Below are positions 36,010 to 43,992 of a stretch of DNA of 64,000 nt, piece by piece. The notes under the pieces were generated by a model. The model saw only the letters and a list, made by a program, of their open reading frames with translations, was not told where the DNA came from and searched no databases. Both the position numbers and the translations under genes were made by a program. The stretch's first letter is position 1, and each line of letters opens with the position of its first letter. This DNA comes from Xanthomonas arboricola. GTDB taxonomy: Bacteria; Pseudomonadota; Gammaproteobacteria; Xanthomonadales; Xanthomonadaceae. The DNA is taken from assembly GCF_003353015.1 (NCBI RefSeq), contig NZ_QREM01000009.1:633413-697412 (forward strand). The letters run 5' to 3'.

Positions 36010-36612
36010 ATGGCGACGATGCTCGATACCCTCGCCGCTGACGCGCGCCACAGCCTGGACATCAAGCACAGCCGCTTCCTGGCCCACGCTGCGGCACTGG
36101 ACGCTCCCGCGCAGGCGCTGGAAATCGTGCAGCGCGTGTCCGTTGCCGATGCCACCCACAATTGCTGGGCCTATCGGTTCGGGCAGGACTATCGCTCCAG
36201 CGACGACGGCGAGCCCAGCGGCACTGCCGGGCGGCCGATTCTGGCGGCCATCGATGGCCAGGGCTACGACCGCGTGGTGGTGGTGGTCACCCGTTGGTAT
36301 GGCGGCATCAAGCTTGGTGCCGGCGGGCTGGTGCGTGCCTACGGTGGCGCAGCGGCCGAATGCCTGCGGCTGGCCACGCGACAACCGTTGATCGCGCTGT
36401 CGCTGCTCGACCTGCAATGCCGGTTCGACGACCTCGGCCTGGTGCATGCTGCCTTGAGCGCCTTCCACGCCGACAAGCTGGATGAACGTTTCGACGCGCA
36501 TGGCGCCGCATTGCGCGTGCAACTGCCTGCCGATCAGCTGGCCGGCTTGAAAACGCGCCTGTGCGACGCCACTCGCAACCGTGTCCACCTCTCATCACCG
36601 GAAGCCGCATGA
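36010..36612 (+). CDS. yigZ: YigZ/IMPACT family protein
   Basis: 200 aa. N-terminal UPF0029/Impact domain with the signature THNCWAYRFG, SSDDGEPSGTAGRPIL and VVVVVTRWYGGIKLGAGGLVRAY (residues ~50-115), and a ferredoxin-like C-terminal domain. Eukaryotic IMPACT regulates translation; the bacterial role is not settled. It overlaps the following ABC exporter gene (ATGA). A second in-frame ATG lies three codons in. Confidence 0.9.
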   Translation: MATMLDTLAADARHSLDIKHSRFLAHAAALDAPAQALEIVQRVSVADATHNCWAYRFGQDYRSSDDGEPSGTAGRPILAAIDGQGYDRVVVVVTRWYGGIKLGAGGLVRAYGGAAAECLRLATRQPLIALSLLDLQCRFDDLGLVHAALSAFHADKLDERFDAHGAALRVQLPADQLAGLKTRLCDATRNRVHLSSPEAA

Positions 36613-38378
36613 ACCAGCCAGCCGCCGCCAGGCCCAACCCATTGCGGAAGCTTGGCAGCCTGCGCACCTTGTGGCCGTTCGTGCAGCGCCAGCGTGGCCT
36701 GTTCGCCGCCTGGCTGATCGCACTGGCCATTTCCTCGGCTGCGACGTTGAGCCTGCCGGCGGCGGTCAAGCAGATGATCGACCATGGGTTTTCCGGCGGC
36801 TCGCAGATCAACCACGCCTTCGCGTTGCTGTTCGCCGTGGCGGTGGTGCTGGCGGTGGCGACGGCCGCGCGCTTCTATTTCGTCGCGCTGCTGGGCGAAA
36901 AGGTGGTCGCCGACCTGCGCGGCCGCCTGTATGCACATCTGATCGGGCTGGACGCCGGCTTTCATGATCGCAGCCGCAGTGGCGAGCTGGTGTCGCGGCT
37001 GTCGGCCGACAGCGAGCTGCTGCGCGGGGTGATCGGCACCACCATGTCGGTGGCGTTGCGCAGCTCGGTGACGGTGATCGGCAGCATGGTGATGCTGTTC
37101 GTCACCAGCCCGCGGCTGGCCGGCTTCACCCTGATCGGCATTCCGCTGGCGGTGCTGCCGATCGTGCTGGGCGCACGCCGCCTGCAGAAGATCTCGCGCG
37201 CCAGCCAGGACCGCGTGGCCGATGCCAACACGCTGGCGGCCGAGACGCTGGGCGCGGTGCGCACCGTGCAGGCGCATGCGCGCGAGCGCTACGAGAGCCA
37301 GCGTTTCAGCCAGGCCCTGTTTGCCGCGATCGATACCGCACGGCTGCGCATCCGCACCCAGGCCACGGTCACTGCGGTGGCGATCATGCTGATCTTCGGC
37401 GCCATCGTCGGTGTGCTGTGGCTGGGCGCGCACGATGTGATCGCCGGACGCATGACGCCCGGCACGTTGGGACAGTTCGTGCTGTACGCACTGATCGGCG
37501 GCGGCTCGGTCGGCGCATTGGCCGAGGTCTGGAACGAATTGCAGCGCGCGGCCGGCGGCATGGGCCGGGTCGGCGAATTGCTCGACGAGCAGCCGGCGAT
37601 CGTCGCGCCGGCCATGCCGCAGCCCTTGCCGCAGCCGCTGCGCGGTGCGATCCATTTCGACCAGGTGGTGTTTCATTATCCGCAGCGCCCGGATGCGCCG
37701 GCGCTGGATGGCTTCGACCTGCATGTCCATCCAGGCGAAACCGTGGCGCTGGTCGGGCCCTCCGGTGCCGGCAAGAGCACCGTGCTGGCGATGTTGCTGC
37801 GCTTCCATGATCCGGTCAGCGGCAGGCTGCGCATCGACGAGGTGGACCTGCGCCAGACCGACCCGGTGCTGCTGCGCGAACGGATTGCACTGGTGCCGCA
37901 GCAACCGACGCTGTTTGCCGCCAGCGCCGCCGACAACATCCGCTACGGGCGCCTGGATGCCAGCGATGCGGAGGTGCAAGCCGCGGCGGCGGCGGCCGAG
38001 GCCGATGGCTTCATCCGCGCCCTGCCGCAGGGCTACGCCAGCGAGCTGGGCGAACGCGGCACACGCCTGTCGGGCGGCCAGCAGCAACGGGTGGCGATCG
38101 CGCGCGCCCTGCTCAAGGACGCGCCGATCCTGCTGCTGGACGAGGCCACCAGCGCGCTGGATGCGCAGAGCGAACGCGCGGTGCAGCAGGCGCTGGACCG
38201 CTTGATGGAAGGCCGCACCACGCTGGTCATCGCCCATCGCCTGGCCACCGTGCTCAAGGCCGACCGCATCGTGGTGATGGATGCCGGCCGCATCGTCGCG
38301 CAGGGCACGCACGCGCAATTGATCGCCGAAGGCGGCCTGTACGCCGAGCTGGCGCGGCTGCAGTTCATCGATCAGTGA
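36609..38378 (+). CDS. ABC exporter, fused membrane and ATPase domains
   Basis: 589 aa half-transporter. Six-helix type I exporter domain (~1-320) and nucleotide-binding domain (~340-589) with Walker A GPSGAGKST, Q-loop VPQQP, signature LSGGQQQRVAIARALL, Walker B ILLLDEATSALD and H-loop IAHRL, all intact. Expected to work as a homodimer in the inner membrane, of the lipid/multidrug (MsbA-like) type; substrate unknown. Useful comparison for the degenerate ABC protein 1.1 kb downstream. Confidence 0.92.
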   Translation: MNQPAAARPNPLRKLGSLRTLWPFVQRQRGLFAAWLIALAISSAATLSLPAAVKQMIDHGFSGGSQINHAFALLFAVAVVLAVATAARFYFVALLGEKVVADLRGRLYAHLIGLDAGFHDRSRSGELVSRLSADSELLRGVIGTTMSVALRSSVTVIGSMVMLFVTSPRLAGFTLIGIPLAVLPIVLGARRLQKISRASQDRVADANTLAAETLGAVRTVQAHARERYESQRFSQALFAAIDTARLRIRTQATVTAVAIMLIFGAIVGVLWLGAHDVIAGRMTPGTLGQFVLYALIGGGSVGALAEVWNELQRAAGGMGRVGELLDEQPAIVAPAMPQPLPQPLRGAIHFDQVVFHYPQRPDAPALDGFDLHVHPGETVALVGPSGAGKSTVLAMLLRFHDPVSGRLRIDEVDLRQTDPVLLRERIALVPQQPTLFAASAADNIRYGRLDASDAEVQAAAAAAEADGFIRALPQGYASELGERGTRLSGGQQQRVAIARALLKDAPILLLDEATSALDAQSERAVQQALDRLMEGRTTLVIAHRLATVLKADRIVVMDAGRIVAQGTHAQLIAEGGLYAELARLQFIDQ

Positions 38379-38480
38379 CGCCTGGGTGACACCGTCCCGT
38401 GCTGTCATGCCGGTATGTTGGCGGCAGCGGTCCGGGCCGATCCTGCGCCCCCACGCGCCCCACCCCTGACGACATCCCGC

Positions 38481-39380
38481 ATGCCCCGCCCCAGAACCAC
38501 CATTCGCCAGCTCAGTTATTTCGTCGCGCTCGCCGACACCGGCAGCTTCACCCGTGCCGCCGAGCAGATGGGCGTGTCGCAACCCTCGTTGTCGCAGCAG
38601 ATCCGTGCGCTGGAGACCATCGTCGGCGCCGCGCTGTTCGAGCGTGGCGTGCCGGCCATCCTGACCCCGCTCGGGCGCGACCTGCTCGATCGTGCGCGCA
38701 GCATCCTGCTGGACGTGGCCGATCTGGAAGACGTTCGCGCCACCTCGGCCGACACCTTGATCGGCACCATCCGGCTGGGCGTGTCGCCCACGCTGGGCGC
38801 CTACCTGATGCCGAGCCTGGTCGCGCGCCTGCATCGCGAACACCCGGCACTGCGCGTGCACGTGCGCGAAGGCCTGCCGACCGTACTCGCCAGCGGCCTG
38901 GCCAGCGGCGTGCACGACCTGATCCTGGCGCAACTGCCGGTAGCCGGGCGCGGCCTGCACAGCGAGCGGCTGTTCCGCGAACCGCTGCACGTGACCATGG
39001 CCGCCGATCATCCCCTGCGTGCCAAGGCCTGCATCACGCCGGCCGATCTGCGCGGCGCCAACCTGCTCACCCTGATGCCCGAATACCGCCTGGCCGAACA
39101 GGTCGCGGCGATCGCCATGGACGTCGGCGCCAACGTCTTGCGCAATTACGAAGGCACCAGCCTGGATGCGATCCGCCAGATGGCCGGGATGGGCATGGGT
39201 CTTGCTTTATTGCCAGACCTGTATGTGCGCCAGGAAATCCGCGAAGGCGACGATGTCGTCGTCCGGCCGATCAAAGGCGGACGCTACTATAGGGAGATCG
39301 GGCTGCTGTGGCGGCAAGGTGCGGGGCGCGCGCCGGCCTTCGGCCTGATCGCCGATCTTTTGCGGGCAGTGGCCGCATAG
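38481..39380 (+). CDS. LysR-family regulator, OxyR-like but without redox cysteines
   Basis: 299 aa. N-terminal winged helix (TIRQLSYFVALADTGSFTRAAEQMGVSQPSLSQQIRALE) and a LysR effector domain that reads like OxyR (EGTSLDAIRQMAGMGMGLALLPDLYV). In OxyR the redox pair lies in GHCLRDQ and a Cys nine residues later; here the segment is LMPEYRLAEQVAAIAMDVG with neither Cys. It therefore cannot sense peroxide by that disulfide. It stands 88 bp upstream of the secretion-like trio in the same direction and may regulate it. Confidence 0.85.
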   Translation: MPRPRTTIRQLSYFVALADTGSFTRAAEQMGVSQPSLSQQIRALETIVGAALFERGVPAILTPLGRDLLDRARSILLDVADLEDVRATSADTLIGTIRLGVSPTLGAYLMPSLVARLHREHPALRVHVREGLPTVLASGLASGVHDLILAQLPVAGRGLHSERLFREPLHVTMAADHPLRAKACITPADLRGANLLTLMPEYRLAEQVAAIAMDVGANVLRNYEGTSLDAIRQMAGMGMGLALLPDLYVRQEIREGDDVVVRPIKGGRYYREIGLLWRQGAGRAPAFGLIADLLRAVAA

Positions 39381-39468: not shown

Positions 39469-41157
39469 ATGGCGGGCAAGCAGATCGGATGGCGGGAAGC
39501 GGTAGCCTGGCTGGCGGAAATCGTCGGGCCGGACATGCCCTATGTACGCCTTGCCATGGTGTACGGGATCGCGATCAGCCTGCTGTTGCTGGCCACGCCG
39601 ATTTCGGTGCAGTTGCTGATCAACAGCGTCGCCAACACCGCGCTGCCCACCCCGCTGTGGACCTTGTCCAGCCTGTTGCTGGGCCTGCTGCTGCTGGTGG
39701 CCGCGCTCAGCGCGATGCGGGTGTGGATGATGGCGCTGTTCGAGCGCCGCCTGTTTGCGCGGGTGGTGGCGGAAATCACGGTGCGCGCGGTGCATGCGCA
39801 GAACCCGTTCTTCGCCGATCAGAACCGTGGCGACGTGTTCAACCGCTACTTCGATCTGGTGGTGGTGCAAAAAGCGGTGCCCAGCCTGGCGGTCGGTGCC
39901 TTCACCATCGTGCTGCAGTCGGCGGTGGGGCTGATCGTCACCAGCTTCTATCACCCGTTCTTCCTCGGCTTCAACGCGCTGCTGCTGCTGACCATCTTCG
40001 CGATCTGGATGATCTGGTCGCGCGGCTCGATCCGCTCGGCGGTGGAACTGAGCCACGCCAAGCACAACGCGGCGCACTGGCTGGAAAGCGTCGGCGGCTC
40101 CAACGGCTTCTACAAGTCCAGTCGCCATCTCAACTTCGCGATGGAGCGCTCCGAGGCGGTGACCGCCGCCTACGTCGCCCGCCATCGGCGCCATTTCCGC
40201 TACACCTTCACCCAGACGGTGGCGTTCCTGCTCACCTACGCGGTCGCCAGCGCGGCGCTGCTGGCACTGGGCGGCAGCCTGATCCTGCGCGGCGAACTGT
40301 CGATCGGCCAGCTGGTGGCGGCCGAGCTGATCCTCAGCGCGGTGTTCTACGGCATCGCGCAGTTGGGCACCTACCTGGACGTGTTCTACGACCTGGTGGC
40401 CAGTGCCGAGGAACTGTCGGTGCTGTATGCCATTCCGCAGGAGCGCCCGGTGGCTGCCGCGGGCAAGATCCCGGGCAACAGCGCGGTGCGCCTGGACGGG
40501 GTGGTGATCGAGGGGGCGCGCTTCGATTTCGCGCTGGAGGCCGGCGAACAGCTGGTGACGCTGGCCGACGGCGGCGCCGAACGGCTGCTGGCGATGGTGC
40601 TCAAGCGCCACGTCGTCCCCGAGCGCGGGCTGGTGATGGTGGGCGGTGCCGACATGGCCACCTTCGACATGTACCTGCTGCGCTCTGAAGTGACCGTGCT
40701 CGATCGGCCAACCATCGTCGAGGTCACCATCCGCGAATACCTGTCGATGGCCTCGGCCGAGGTGACCTCCGAGACGATGCTCGAAGCGATCGATACGGTG
40801 GGGCTGCGCGCACGCATCGCCGCGCTGCCGCAAGGCCTGGACACCCGGCTTGCCGCCTCCGGCTACCCGCTGTGGATCGGCGAGGTGATGGCGCTGAAAC
40901 TGGCCAACGCCCTGCTCGTGCGTCCGCGCGTGCTGATGCTGTCGCAGCTGTACGACCTGCTGCCGGCCGAGCGCCTGACCCGGGTGCTGCGGCAGCTGAA
41001 GGAGGCCGGCACCACGGTGCTGCTGTGCACCGGCCGGCCGGAGGACATCACCCTGGATGGCTGGTTCCACCTGGAACCGGGGCGCCAGCAGCGCTACGCC
41101 ACGCGCGCCGACCTGATCGCATCCAAGCAGGAGGCCGACGATGCAGCACGCCTCTGA
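39469..41157 (+). CDS. ABC-exporter-like protein with a fully degenerate ATPase domain
   Basis: 562 aa. The N-terminal ~320 residues are a type I exporter membrane domain with about six helices (YVRLAMVYGIAISLLLLATPI onward). The C-terminal part aligns by eye with an ABC ATPase in spacing and strand pattern, but each functional motif is replaced. Walker A reads LADGGAERL (365-373, no Lys or Ser/Thr). The Q-loop Gln is D412. The signature is LWIGE (468-472). Walker B DE is S492-Q493, and the H-loop His is G522. It should not hydrolyse ATP. The next genes are a HlyD-like adaptor (17-bp overlap) and a TolC-like channel, so it occupies the place of the type I secretion ATPase. Confidence 0.85.
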   Translation: MAGKQIGWREAVAWLAEIVGPDMPYVRLAMVYGIAISLLLLATPISVQLLINSVANTALPTPLWTLSSLLLGLLLLVAALSAMRVWMMALFERRLFARVVAEITVRAVHAQNPFFADQNRGDVFNRYFDLVVVQKAVPSLAVGAFTIVLQSAVGLIVTSFYHPFFLGFNALLLLTIFAIWMIWSRGSIRSAVELSHAKHNAAHWLESVGGSNGFYKSSRHLNFAMERSEAVTAAYVARHRRHFRYTFTQTVAFLLTYAVASAALLALGGSLILRGELSIGQLVAAELILSAVFYGIAQLGTYLDVFYDLVASAEELSVLYAIPQERPVAAAGKIPGNSAVRLDGVVIEGARFDFALEAGEQLVTLADGGAERLLAMVLKRHVVPERGLVMVGGADMATFDMYLLRSEVTVLDRPTIVEVTIREYLSMASAEVTSETMLEAIDTVGLRARIAALPQGLDTRLAASGYPLWIGEVMALKLANALLVRPRVLMLSQLYDLLPAERLTRVLRQLKEAGTTVLLCTGRPEDITLDGWFHLEPGRQQRYATRADLIASKQEADDAARL

Positions 41158-42229
41158 CCGGATCGCGCACTTCCCCACCCTGGCATCCATGCGCCCGCCC
41201 AGCATCGCCAAGGTATTGGCGTGGATGCTGCTGATCGGCGTGGCCATCGCCGGTTCCATCCTGGCGTTCGCGCCCTGGGTGCAGACCGCCAGCGGCAAGG
41301 GCCAGGTGGTCTCGCTGGACCCGGGCGACCGCCAGCAGCAGGTCACCGCCTTCGTGCCGGGCCGGGTGGAGCGTTGGTACGTACACGATGGTCAGCACGT
41401 CGCCAAGGGCGACCCGATCGCCCGCGTCGGCGACCTGGACCCGGACCTGCTGGCCCGTCTTGCCAGCGAGCGGGCGCAGGTGGCGGCGGAAATCAGCGCC
41501 ATCCAGCAATCGCGCGCGGTCGCCAGTATCGATGTGGAGCGCAGCCGCCAGCTGCTCGCCGAGGGGCTGGCCGGCCGCCGCGACTACGAGCTGACCCAGA
41601 TCAAGGTGGCCGAAGCCGATGCCAAGCTGGCCGAGTCGCGCGCCAAGCTGACCCGCATCGACATCCAGTTGAACCGCCAGTCGGCACAGCTGGTGCGCGC
41701 ACCGCGCGATGGCCGCGTGCAGCAGCTCAACGCCGCCAGCGGCAGCGCGATGGTCTCGCCCGGCACGGTGCTGGCAGTGATCGCGCCGGAGCGGGTGGAG
41801 CGTGCGGTCGAGCTGTACATCGACGGCCGCGACGTACCGCTGATCCGCCCCGGTCGCCCGGTGCGGCTGGAGTTCGAAGGCTGGCCGGCGATCCAGTTCA
41901 GCGGCTGGCCGTCGGTGGCACACGGCATGTTCGATGGGCGCGTCCGCGCCATCGACCCCAATGCCGCGCCGGATGGATTGTTCCGCATCCTGGTCGAACC
42001 GCAGCCGGGCAAGCCGGCCTGGCCGGCGCAGGAATTCGCCCGCCAGGGCGGCAAGGTGCGCGGCTGGGTACAGGGCGAAACGGTGAAGGTGGGCTACGAA
42101 CTGTGGCGCCAGCTCAACAACTTCCCGCTGGAATTCGGCCGCCGCCCGGCAGCGACGACCCAGGATGAGGGCAAGGCCAAGCCGGCGTCGACCGGCAAGT
42201 CCGAAGACGACGAGACCGGCAAGAAATGA
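41141..42229 (+). CDS. HlyD-type membrane-fusion (periplasmic adaptor) protein
   Basis: 362 aa. One N-terminal membrane anchor (VLAWMLLIGVAIAGSILAF, ~25-43), then a lipoyl/biotinyl-like half (VTAFVPGRVERWYVHDGQHVAKGDPI), a helical hairpin (~105-185, LASERAQVAAEISAIQQSR and LTQIKVAEADAKLAESRAK), the second lipoyl half (VRAPRDGRVQQLNAASG) and a beta domain. The C-terminus is a charged tail. It would link the degenerate ABC protein to the outer-membrane channel. Overlaps both neighbours, so the three are one translation unit. Confidence 0.88.
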   Translation: MQHASDRIAHFPTLASMRPPSIAKVLAWMLLIGVAIAGSILAFAPWVQTASGKGQVVSLDPGDRQQQVTAFVPGRVERWYVHDGQHVAKGDPIARVGDLDPDLLARLASERAQVAAEISAIQQSRAVASIDVERSRQLLAEGLAGRRDYELTQIKVAEADAKLAESRAKLTRIDIQLNRQSAQLVRAPRDGRVQQLNAASGSAMVSPGTVLAVIAPERVERAVELYIDGRDVPLIRPGRPVRLEFEGWPAIQFSGWPSVAHGMFDGRVRAIDPNAAPDGLFRILVEPQPGKPAWPAQEFARQGGKVRGWVQGETVKVGYELWRQLNNFPLEFGRRPAATTQDEGKAKPASTGKSEDDETGKK

Positions 42230-43629
42230 TCCGCCGTCTTGTCGTCCTGCTGATCGCGCTCGCACCGGGCGTGGCTGCCGCCCAGACCACCGCGCTGACA
42301 CTGGATGAGGTGCTGCGCTCCTCTGCGCGCGCCTCCCCGCAGATCGTCGAATCGCTGGCCAAGGTCCGCCAGGCCGAGGGCAAGGGCATCTCGGCCGATG
42401 GTGCATTCGACACCGTGTTCGACATCGAGGGCCGCTCGCGCGAGGCCGGCTACTACGACGGCAGCACCATCGAAACCGGCGTCAAGCGCCCCTTCGAGGA
42501 AAACGGCGGCTATTACTACGGTGGCTACCGTTCCTCGCGCGGTTCGTTCCCGGTCTACGAAGACAAGTCCTATACCGACCGCGGCGGCGAAGTGAAGGTC
42601 GGCGCGCTGTATGCGCTGCTGCGCGACCGGGTGGTCGACGAGCGCCGCACGCGCCGCAGCGTTGCCGGTGCCGATATCGATGTCGCGCAATACGAAGCGG
42701 AAATGGTCGCCATCGGTGTGCAACGCCGCGCGGTGGACGCCTACCAGAGCTGGGTCGCGGCCGGCCTGAAGCTGCGCGCGTACAACGACCTGCTGCAGCT
42801 GGCCGAGCAGCGCCGCAATGCGATCTCCCGGCAGGTGACGCTGGGCGCGCGGCCCACCATCCTGCTGACCGAAAACGACCAGAACCTGGTCCGCCGACGC
42901 GCGCTGGTGGTGCGCTCGGAGCAGGACTTCGCCAATGCTGCCAATGCCTTGTCGCTGTACCTGCGCGATGAAGCGGGAATGCCGTTGATCGTGTCCACCG
43001 AACGCCTGCCGGCCGACACGTCGGCACTGGAAGGGCTTGCCGGCGCCAGCAAGATCACCGCACCGGTGGAGCGCCCCGATTACCGCGCGGTGCTGACCCG
43101 CATCGATCAGGCCACCGCCCGGCTGATGCTGGCGCAGAACGATCTCAAGCCGCGCCTGGATGTGAGCCTGGAGGTCAGCAAGGACTTCGGGGCGCCCGGT
43201 GTCGGCGGCCCGAACCGCTCGCCGACCGATGCGATCATCGGCTTCCGTTTCAGCGTGCCGCTGGAAAACCGCGCCGCCAAGGGCCGGGTCGCCGAAGCAC
43301 GCGCCGAGATCGAGGCGCTGGATCAGCGCAGCCGCTACCTGCGCGACCAGATCACGGTGGAGGTCGAATCGATCGTCATCTCGCTCAACGCCGCCGAACG
43401 GCTGGCCAGGATCGCCGACGAGGAACGCAGCCTGGCCGACCGCCTGGCGGCCGCCGAGCGGCGCCGCTTCGAACTGGGATCGGGCGATTTCTTCCTGGTC
43501 AATCAGCGCGAGGAAACCGCCAACGATGCCCGCGTACGCCTGATCGATGCGCAGGCGCGCATCGCCTCGGCGCGTGCGGAGCTGGCGGCGGCAACGGCCG
43601 ATCGGGATGCGCTGCAGCTGAGCCGGTGA
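42226..43629 (+). CDS. TolC-family outer-membrane efflux/secretion channel
   Basis: 467 aa. Signal peptide MIRRLVVLLIALAPGVAAAQ. Two structurally repeated halves typical of TolC proteins: each begins with a long helix (LTLDEVLRSSARASPQIVES; VERPDYRAVLTRIDQATARLMLAQND) and contains beta-strand segments and coiled-coil helices ending ARIASARAELAAATADRDAL. It forms the exit duct for the system encoded by the two preceding genes, which it overlaps by four bases. Confidence 0.88.
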   Translation: MIRRLVVLLIALAPGVAAAQTTALTLDEVLRSSARASPQIVESLAKVRQAEGKGISADGAFDTVFDIEGRSREAGYYDGSTIETGVKRPFEENGGYYYGGYRSSRGSFPVYEDKSYTDRGGEVKVGALYALLRDRVVDERRTRRSVAGADIDVAQYEAEMVAIGVQRRAVDAYQSWVAAGLKLRAYNDLLQLAEQRRNAISRQVTLGARPTILLTENDQNLVRRRALVVRSEQDFANAANALSLYLRDEAGMPLIVSTERLPADTSALEGLAGASKITAPVERPDYRAVLTRIDQATARLMLAQNDLKPRLDVSLEVSKDFGAPGVGGPNRSPTDAIIGFRFSVPLENRAAKGRVAEARAEIEALDQRSRYLRDQITVEVESIVISLNAAERLARIADEERSLADRLAAAERRRFELGSGDFFLVNQREETANDARVRLIDAQARIASARAELAAATADRDALQLSR

Positions 43630-43779: not shown

Positions 43780-43992
43780 ATGTCTTTCCGGCAATTTCCC
43801 GCAATCGGTGCAGATGGCGAGTCCTACGTCATCATCGAATTCCGCGACGAGCTGCAATCCCGCAACGGGCCGCAAGCCAGCACACAGCCGCACGCTGCGC
43901 CACGCTACGAACTCCCCGATGGCCGCCGCCTGCAGCGGCAGGGCCAGCGCTTCATCACCGATGGTGGCGAGTTACGGCTGTCCACGTCCTGA
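43780..43992 (+). CDS. small protein of unknown function
   Basis: 70 aa with a strong GGAGGTG ribosome-binding site, so very probably expressed. No signal peptide; begins MSFRQFPAIGADGESYVIIEF and ends in a beta-rich YELPDGRRLQRQGQRFITDGGELRL segment. No family recognised. It lies 150 bp after the channel gene in the same direction and might be an accessory or substrate of that system, which is speculation. Confidence 0.7.
   Translation: MSFRQFPAIGADGESYVIIEFRDELQSRNGPQASTQPHAAPRYELPDGRRLQRQGQRFITDGGELRLSTS

Follow-up and report, generated by a model that had tools for sequence, protein, structure and literature searches.

A window of 64,000 nt from Xanthomonas arboricola (GCF_003353015.1, contig NZ_QREM01000009.1, positions 633,413-697,412 of the forward strand) was analysed, and all coordinates given below refer to this window. 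At 39469-43629 (+) it contains a trio of overlapping genes that encode pABC, an HlyB-type ABC protein, together with an HlyD-type adaptor and a TolC-type channel. The pABC gene (39469..41157, +) specifies a protein of 562 aa, consisting of an HlyB-type membrane domain (residues ~14-325) followed by an ABC fold (residues ~335-530) that contains none of the ATPase motifs. It overlaps by 17 nt the gene of the HlyD-type adaptor (41141..42229, +; 362 aa; HlyD_3/HlyD_D23), a periplasmic protein with a short alpha-hairpin, which in turn overlaps by 4 nt the gene of the outer-membrane, TolC-type channel (42226..43629, +; 467 aa; OEP). An earlier note on this DNA had proposed that an adaptor and a channel of these types are encoded with the ABC protein, and the overlapping reading frames and Pfam matches bear this out. 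The note had also placed an intact ABC exporter gene at 36609-38378, which was confirmed by the match of its product to TIGR02204 (MsbA_rel; 871 bits, above the cut-off of 780).

Between this exporter gene and the trio lies a gene for a LysR-type regulator (38415..39380, +; LysR_substrate and HTH_1), which ends 88 bp 5' of pABC. By eye, this regulator is presumably OxyR-like, seemingly without Cys at the usual redox positions. A scan of promoters and terminators gave no signal beyond chance. On the other side of the trio, 3' of the channel gene, a 70-aa ORF (43780-43992, +) is kept in Xanthomonas loci and has no convincing Pfam match. This ORF was considered as a cargo gene and rejected, because it is found at Xanthomonas loci only and persists in a genome in which pABC is broken (G032).

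The pABC protein aligns with the HlyB-type profile TIGR01846 over residues 14-518 (E 4e-29), with a score of 101 bits that lies far under the NCBIfam cut-off of 726, and Pfam ABC_tran does not match it at all. Alignment of the family with canonical T1SS ABC proteins upheld, to the residue, the earlier observation that all five ATPase motifs have been replaced. The Lys of the former Walker A stretch (40549..40602, +; residues 361-378, QLVTLADGGAERLLAMVL) is E in pABC, and the Gln of the former Q-loop (40678..40716, +; residues 404-416, LRSEVTVLDRPTI) is D412. The LSGGQ signature has become LWIGE (40861..40902, +; residues 465-478, GYPLWIGEVMALKL), the Asp-Glu pair of the former Walker B, which was delimited together with the D-loop (40924..40968, +; residues 486-500, PRVLMLSQLYDLLPA), has become S-Q, and the His of the former H-loop (41008..41046, +; residues 514-526, GTTVLLCTGRPED) is replaced by G522. 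Because these stretches are the same or near-identical in all intact Xanthomonas orthologues of pABC, and because the dN/dS of the nucleotide-binding domain (NBD) is low (0.11), the loss of the motifs reflects neither chance nor sequencing error. From the aligned sequences we infer that pABC has no nucleotide site and would not bind ATP.

Structure prediction suggests that the overall architecture has nevertheless been kept. An AlphaFold2 model of pABC, based on 47 relatives, reached a mean pLDDT of 86.6 and a pTM of 0.75 and is predicted to have a full ABC exporter fold. A Foldseek comparison of this model with the PDB placed TmrAB (6rai) and HlyB (8dck) among the best matches, both with a TM-score of 0.87 (query length) and with TmrAB at the top. 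At the level of prediction, this excludes a C-terminal domain with a fold unrelated to ABC ATPases, which the earlier note had considered. In the model of the adaptor, the hairpin is formed by helices 103-140 and 146-180, of ~36 residues each, and the top Foldseek matches of this protein were MacA and AcrA, with modest TM-scores. Among single-subunit sequence relatives in the PDB, the best for pABC was HlyB of 8dck and the best for the adaptor was HlyD of 8dck.

Counting that of the window, 35 Xanthomonas genomes were compared, and 32 of them contain a full-length pABC. In the other three, the reading frame is disrupted near the N-terminus (G012), split near residue 325 by a frameshift (G027), or broken and partly inverted (G032); the frameshifts in G012 and G027 could be assembly errors. 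The adaptor and channel genes of these three genomes are still readable despite the damage to pABC. Estimates of dN/dS by the Nei-Gojobori method from 23 sequences were 0.111 for the NBD of pABC, 0.071 for its formerly ATP-facing stretches and 0.082 for its membrane domain. The adaptor gave 0.088, the channel 0.095 and the intact neighbouring exporter, MsbA_rel, 0.097. The dead domain of pABC is under ordinary purifying selection. In line with the earlier note, pABC is thus maintained rather than decaying, as indicated by these ratios, by its conservation throughout the genus, and by a large family in which these losses recur. Relaxed selection limited to one strain, with normal motifs in its homologues, was not seen; the close homologues all lack normal motifs.

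The trio is kept in Xanthomonas and, beyond this genus, in bacterial genomes numbering in the hundreds. When GTDB genomes were scanned with a three-sequence profile, 165 relatives were detected, of which 80 were kept, from Xanthomonas, Sphingomonas, Sphingobium, Novosphingobium, and Caulobacter. In Novosphingobium aromaticivorans, the pABC orthologue is SARO_RS19820, in a trio with SARO_RS19815 and SARO_RS19810, and data from a barcoded transposon library of this strain have been published (PMC11737130). Wider searches revealed relatives in about a dozen gammaproteobacterial families, as well as in the Bacteroidota Persicobacter, Aureibacter, and Riemerella; in one order, 76 of 201 genomes carried a member of the family. 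Viral contigs contained no relative. The adaptor gene lies directly 3' of pABC at every locus checked, and a TolC-type channel gene is found downstream in nearly all trio loci. Furthermore, a search with an adaptor profile (E 1e-30) gave matches in 11 of 274 class genomes, every one of which carries pABC. In trees of the membrane domain, the pABC family forms one clade versus the canonical T1SS proteins, with support of 99 and 100, and sits on a long branch; because the searches were quick and the branches long, the branching order within the family is provisional. The family is separate from the canonical T1SS ABC proteins and apparently undescribed, and a literature search, with most subscription journals outside its coverage, returned no description of it.

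Within this wide distribution, the Xanthomonas proteins are nested among those of Sphingomonas in the tree, with identities of up to 83 percent, and no family member was found in the other searched genera of the taxonomic family to which Xanthomonas belongs. Because of this nesting and this absence, it is probable that an ancestor of Xanthomonas acquired pABC from a sphingomonad. Members of the family were also found on sphingomonad plasmids. In a plasmid-labelled record of Riemerella anatipestifer, the trio lies amid murB, murF/alr, and thymidine kinase genes, and its ABC protein has retained a P-loop and little else.

A LysR gene adjoins the trio in Xanthomonas and in most Sphingomonas loci. 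At the loci compared, no other widely conserved neighbour of the trio was found, and no conserved cargo gene lay beside it. Genes for DabB/DabA (inorganic-carbon uptake) occur near the trio at some loci (L091, L097, L114, L156): DabB and DabA are encoded directly 5' of the LysR-trio unit at three Sphingomonas loci, and DabAB and a LysR gene lie beside pABC at one gammaproteobacterial locus. A link between DabA/DabB and the trio was set aside as local, because DabA is absent from the genome of the window and was present in 11 of 40 genomes tested.

When the motifs were surveyed in homologues, as the earlier note had proposed, the Q-loop, H-loop, and catalytic Glu proved to be almost always gone throughout the family, with the P-loop present in some branches. 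Of 68 family rows, 26 keep the Walker A Lys, one the Q-loop Gln and three the H-loop His, and the Q-loop is one residue shorter than the canonical one in all 68. Glu occupies the catalytic column in eight rows, although a true DE is found in only five, all from one genus. The bearers of a P-loop are members from one gammaproteobacterial order, the gammaproteobacterial relative L172, and some Bacteroidota, and the tree shows six or more changes in the state of the P-loop. Because the P-loop is present in all canonical relatives, the simplest reading of these sequences is that the hydrolysis residues were lost early and the P-loop later and repeatedly, although the tree alone leaves the direction of change unset. 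ATP binding may still matter in the branches that keep a P-loop. Most of the P-loop-bearing relatives (e.g., the 689-aa protein of locus L154, in genome G309) possess ~130-180 extra residues at the N-terminus, which have no Pfam match, and their adaptors, at ~443 aa, are longer than the Xanthomonas type.

Constraint in this family has shifted toward the membrane domain. Residues F128, Q150, H162, K198, W204, Q249, Y257, E286, and Y307 are invariant or near-invariant in the family and differ from those of canonical T1SS proteins. Position 286 (codon 40324..40326, +), in TM6, is Glu in every family member examined, where canonical T1SS ABC proteins mostly have Asn. H162 (codon 39952..39954, +), in the periplasmic TM3-TM4 turn, is nearly invariant, with L172 as an exception, and is Ser in most canonical proteins. 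Both residues lie near the periplasmic ends of membrane helices (predicted breaks at 160-162 and 274-278). Comparison of Xanthomonas pABC with distant relatives gave identities of 49 versus 30 percent and 43 versus 31 percent for the membrane domain versus the NBD, whereas these values were equal or reversed (66 versus 71) in pairs of canonical T1SS ABC proteins. Within the NBD, no old motif stretch varies more than the former Walker A (entropy 2.13, versus 1.81 for the NBD), and the other old stretches are conserved above the remainder of the domain. That E286 and H162 couple the protein to an ion gradient is put forward as a hypothesis only, and the canonical Asn at position 286 is already polar.

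Because the parts required for the use of ATP have been lost while selection maintains the trio, it probably works without ATP use of its own. The reading favoured here, to which a probability of roughly 0.55 is assigned, is that the trio may constitute an ATP-independent tripartite conduit derived from a T1SS, in which the membrane domain gates and the NBD serves as a scaffold. A pABC homodimer would sit in the inner membrane as the base of an uninterrupted, T1SS-like conduit; homodimerisation is assumed, as the model of pABC is a monomer. This conduit would operate without ATP hydrolysis by pABC, whose NBDs would provide an ATP-independent scaffold for dimerisation and coupling, and gating or substrate work might be performed in the membrane domain by Q150, H162, K198, Q249, Y257, E286, and Y307. 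Cargo would probably be taken from the inner membrane or the periplasm and leave through the adaptor and channel, driven by its own gradient or by coupling to an ion gradient. The LysR regulator encoded beside the trio probably governs expression. On this reading, the family lost its hydrolysis residues first and the P-loop afterwards, on more than one occasion. A broader proposal is advanced only tentatively: that exporters derived from T1SSs turned the ABC motor into an ATP-independent transporter across phyla, with work in the membrane domain by invariant polar residues, among them E286 and H162, that is possibly proton-coupled, and with surviving relatives as a record of the route, on which loss of the hydrolysis residues preceded that of the P-loop.

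Several other explanations were weighed against an ATP-independent conduit. It seems rather unlikely that the trio has a structural or regulatory role without transport, with pABC anchoring the adaptor and channel and timing their assembly or sensing a membrane signal. Such a role would suit the retention of a non-catalytic NBD, as well as an adaptor and cytoplasmic coupling regions that are conserved, but the membrane domain has the most conserved positions of all, and this and the retention of the channel gene at almost every locus suggest that cargo passes through the complex. The chances are poorer still for an ATP-driven complex with a borrowed partner, in which pABC would pair, as a heterodimer, with an intact half-exporter whose gene lies elsewhere, such as the MsbA_rel protein of 36609-38378. 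Heterodimers in which one half is degenerate are frequent among exporters (review PMC7756269), some intact ABC exporters occur in every genome tested, and in Xanthomonas one of these adjoins the trio. Against this, MsbA_rel adjoins the trio in Xanthomonas only, and no conserved intact ABC gene was found beside the trio at the loci compared outside this genus. Furthermore, full-strength MsbA_rel is missing from six genomes that contain the trio (G085, G101, G199, G248, G309, and G413), where the best matches score ~430-507 bits against the cut-off of 780. As it is neither a neighbour outside Xanthomonas nor universal, MsbA_rel was rejected as an obligate partner in general, and the borrowing of the adjacent exporter, one of the options in the earlier note, is disfavoured. 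The PF00664 proteins of the window's genome, inventoried by a family search and from four genome stretches, comprise MsbA_rel, an MsbA-like protein, a CydDC-like pair, three more intact ABC exporters, and pABC, and none of the other exporters looks T1SS-like in the stretches examined. One intact ABC exporter of this genome (C12, ~454 kb) adjoins an HprK-like gene and possibly belongs to a peptide-biosynthesis cluster. Typical degenerate halves, in which Walker B, H-loop, and signature are altered, still hold ATP, whereas pABC retains neither Walker A nor the signature, and both composite sites would therefore be incomplete with any partner. A partner ATPase encoded at a distance may nevertheless exist.

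Cryptic use of ATP, in which different residues would have re-formed the pABC site so that it could still bind the nucleotide or hydrolyse it slowly, is improbable. The old motif stretches other than Walker A do exceed the rest of the NBD in conservation, and some pseudoenzymes annotated as inactive have proved to be active, as found for USP53 (PMC12037411). However, the former Walker A is the least conserved of the stretches by the entropy values given above, and the aligned positions in Xanthomonas offer no Lys, catalytic Glu, or His. It is very hard to credit that the trio is what is left of an ordinary type I secretion system in the course of decay. Such decay would account for the broken pABC gene of G032 and for the frameshifts in G027 and G012, but it is contradicted by the dN/dS of ~0.1 for all three genes, by a family that spans phyla with the same losses, and by the frames that are intact in most Xanthomonas genomes, and it was rejected on the basis of dN/dS and distribution.

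A selected and widespread family of motorless ABC proteins makes the role of the exporter fold without ATP testable, and the graded series among its branches, with the P-loop present in some and lost in others, offers natural intermediates. Because many pABC relatives carry the database label 'ABC transporter ATP-binding protein', motorless systems of this kind are easy to overlook.

Among known systems, the trio resembles HlyB/HlyD/TolC, the haemolysin exporter of E. coli, in its gene order (ABC followed by HlyD), in the fold of pABC, in that the closest full-length relatives of pABC and the adaptor with solved structures are those of 8dck, and in its TolC-type channel. It differs in that pABC lacks the ATPase motifs, the adaptor hairpin is short, and no RTX or peptide cargo gene was found near the trio. 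Proteins of the HlyB/LssB branch also carry a C39 or C39-like N-terminal domain, whereas pABC has none, with ~19 residues before family position 20. Heterodimeric exporters with a degenerate site (TAP, TM287/288, and TmrAB) likewise contain a protomer with altered catalytic residues, but in these the degenerate protomer still holds ATP and works with a dedicated partner, while in pABC both half-sites are gone and no partner gene is linked to it; Xanthomonas pABC lacks the Walker A/P-loop expected of a degenerate protomer. With the MacAB-TolC, RND, and MFS (EmrAB) pumps the trio shares the adaptor fold and channel class, but its inner-membrane component is predicted to have the type-I ABC exporter fold, unlike MacB, RND, and MFS proteins. 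RND and MFS tripartite pumps can run on ion gradients. Within the same genus, the T1SS-type loci RaxABC, PctAB, and HlyDB are known. A 2025 survey of X. arboricola sought these three and, in the parts of the article consulted, reported none in pv. juglandis and made no mention of the trio (PMC12448352). The trio is present in a pv. juglandis genome. ABC exporters are defined by their use of ATP; because the trio follows the T1SS plan and its ABC protein lacks the ATPase motifs, it is classed as a variant on that plan rather than as a T1SS.
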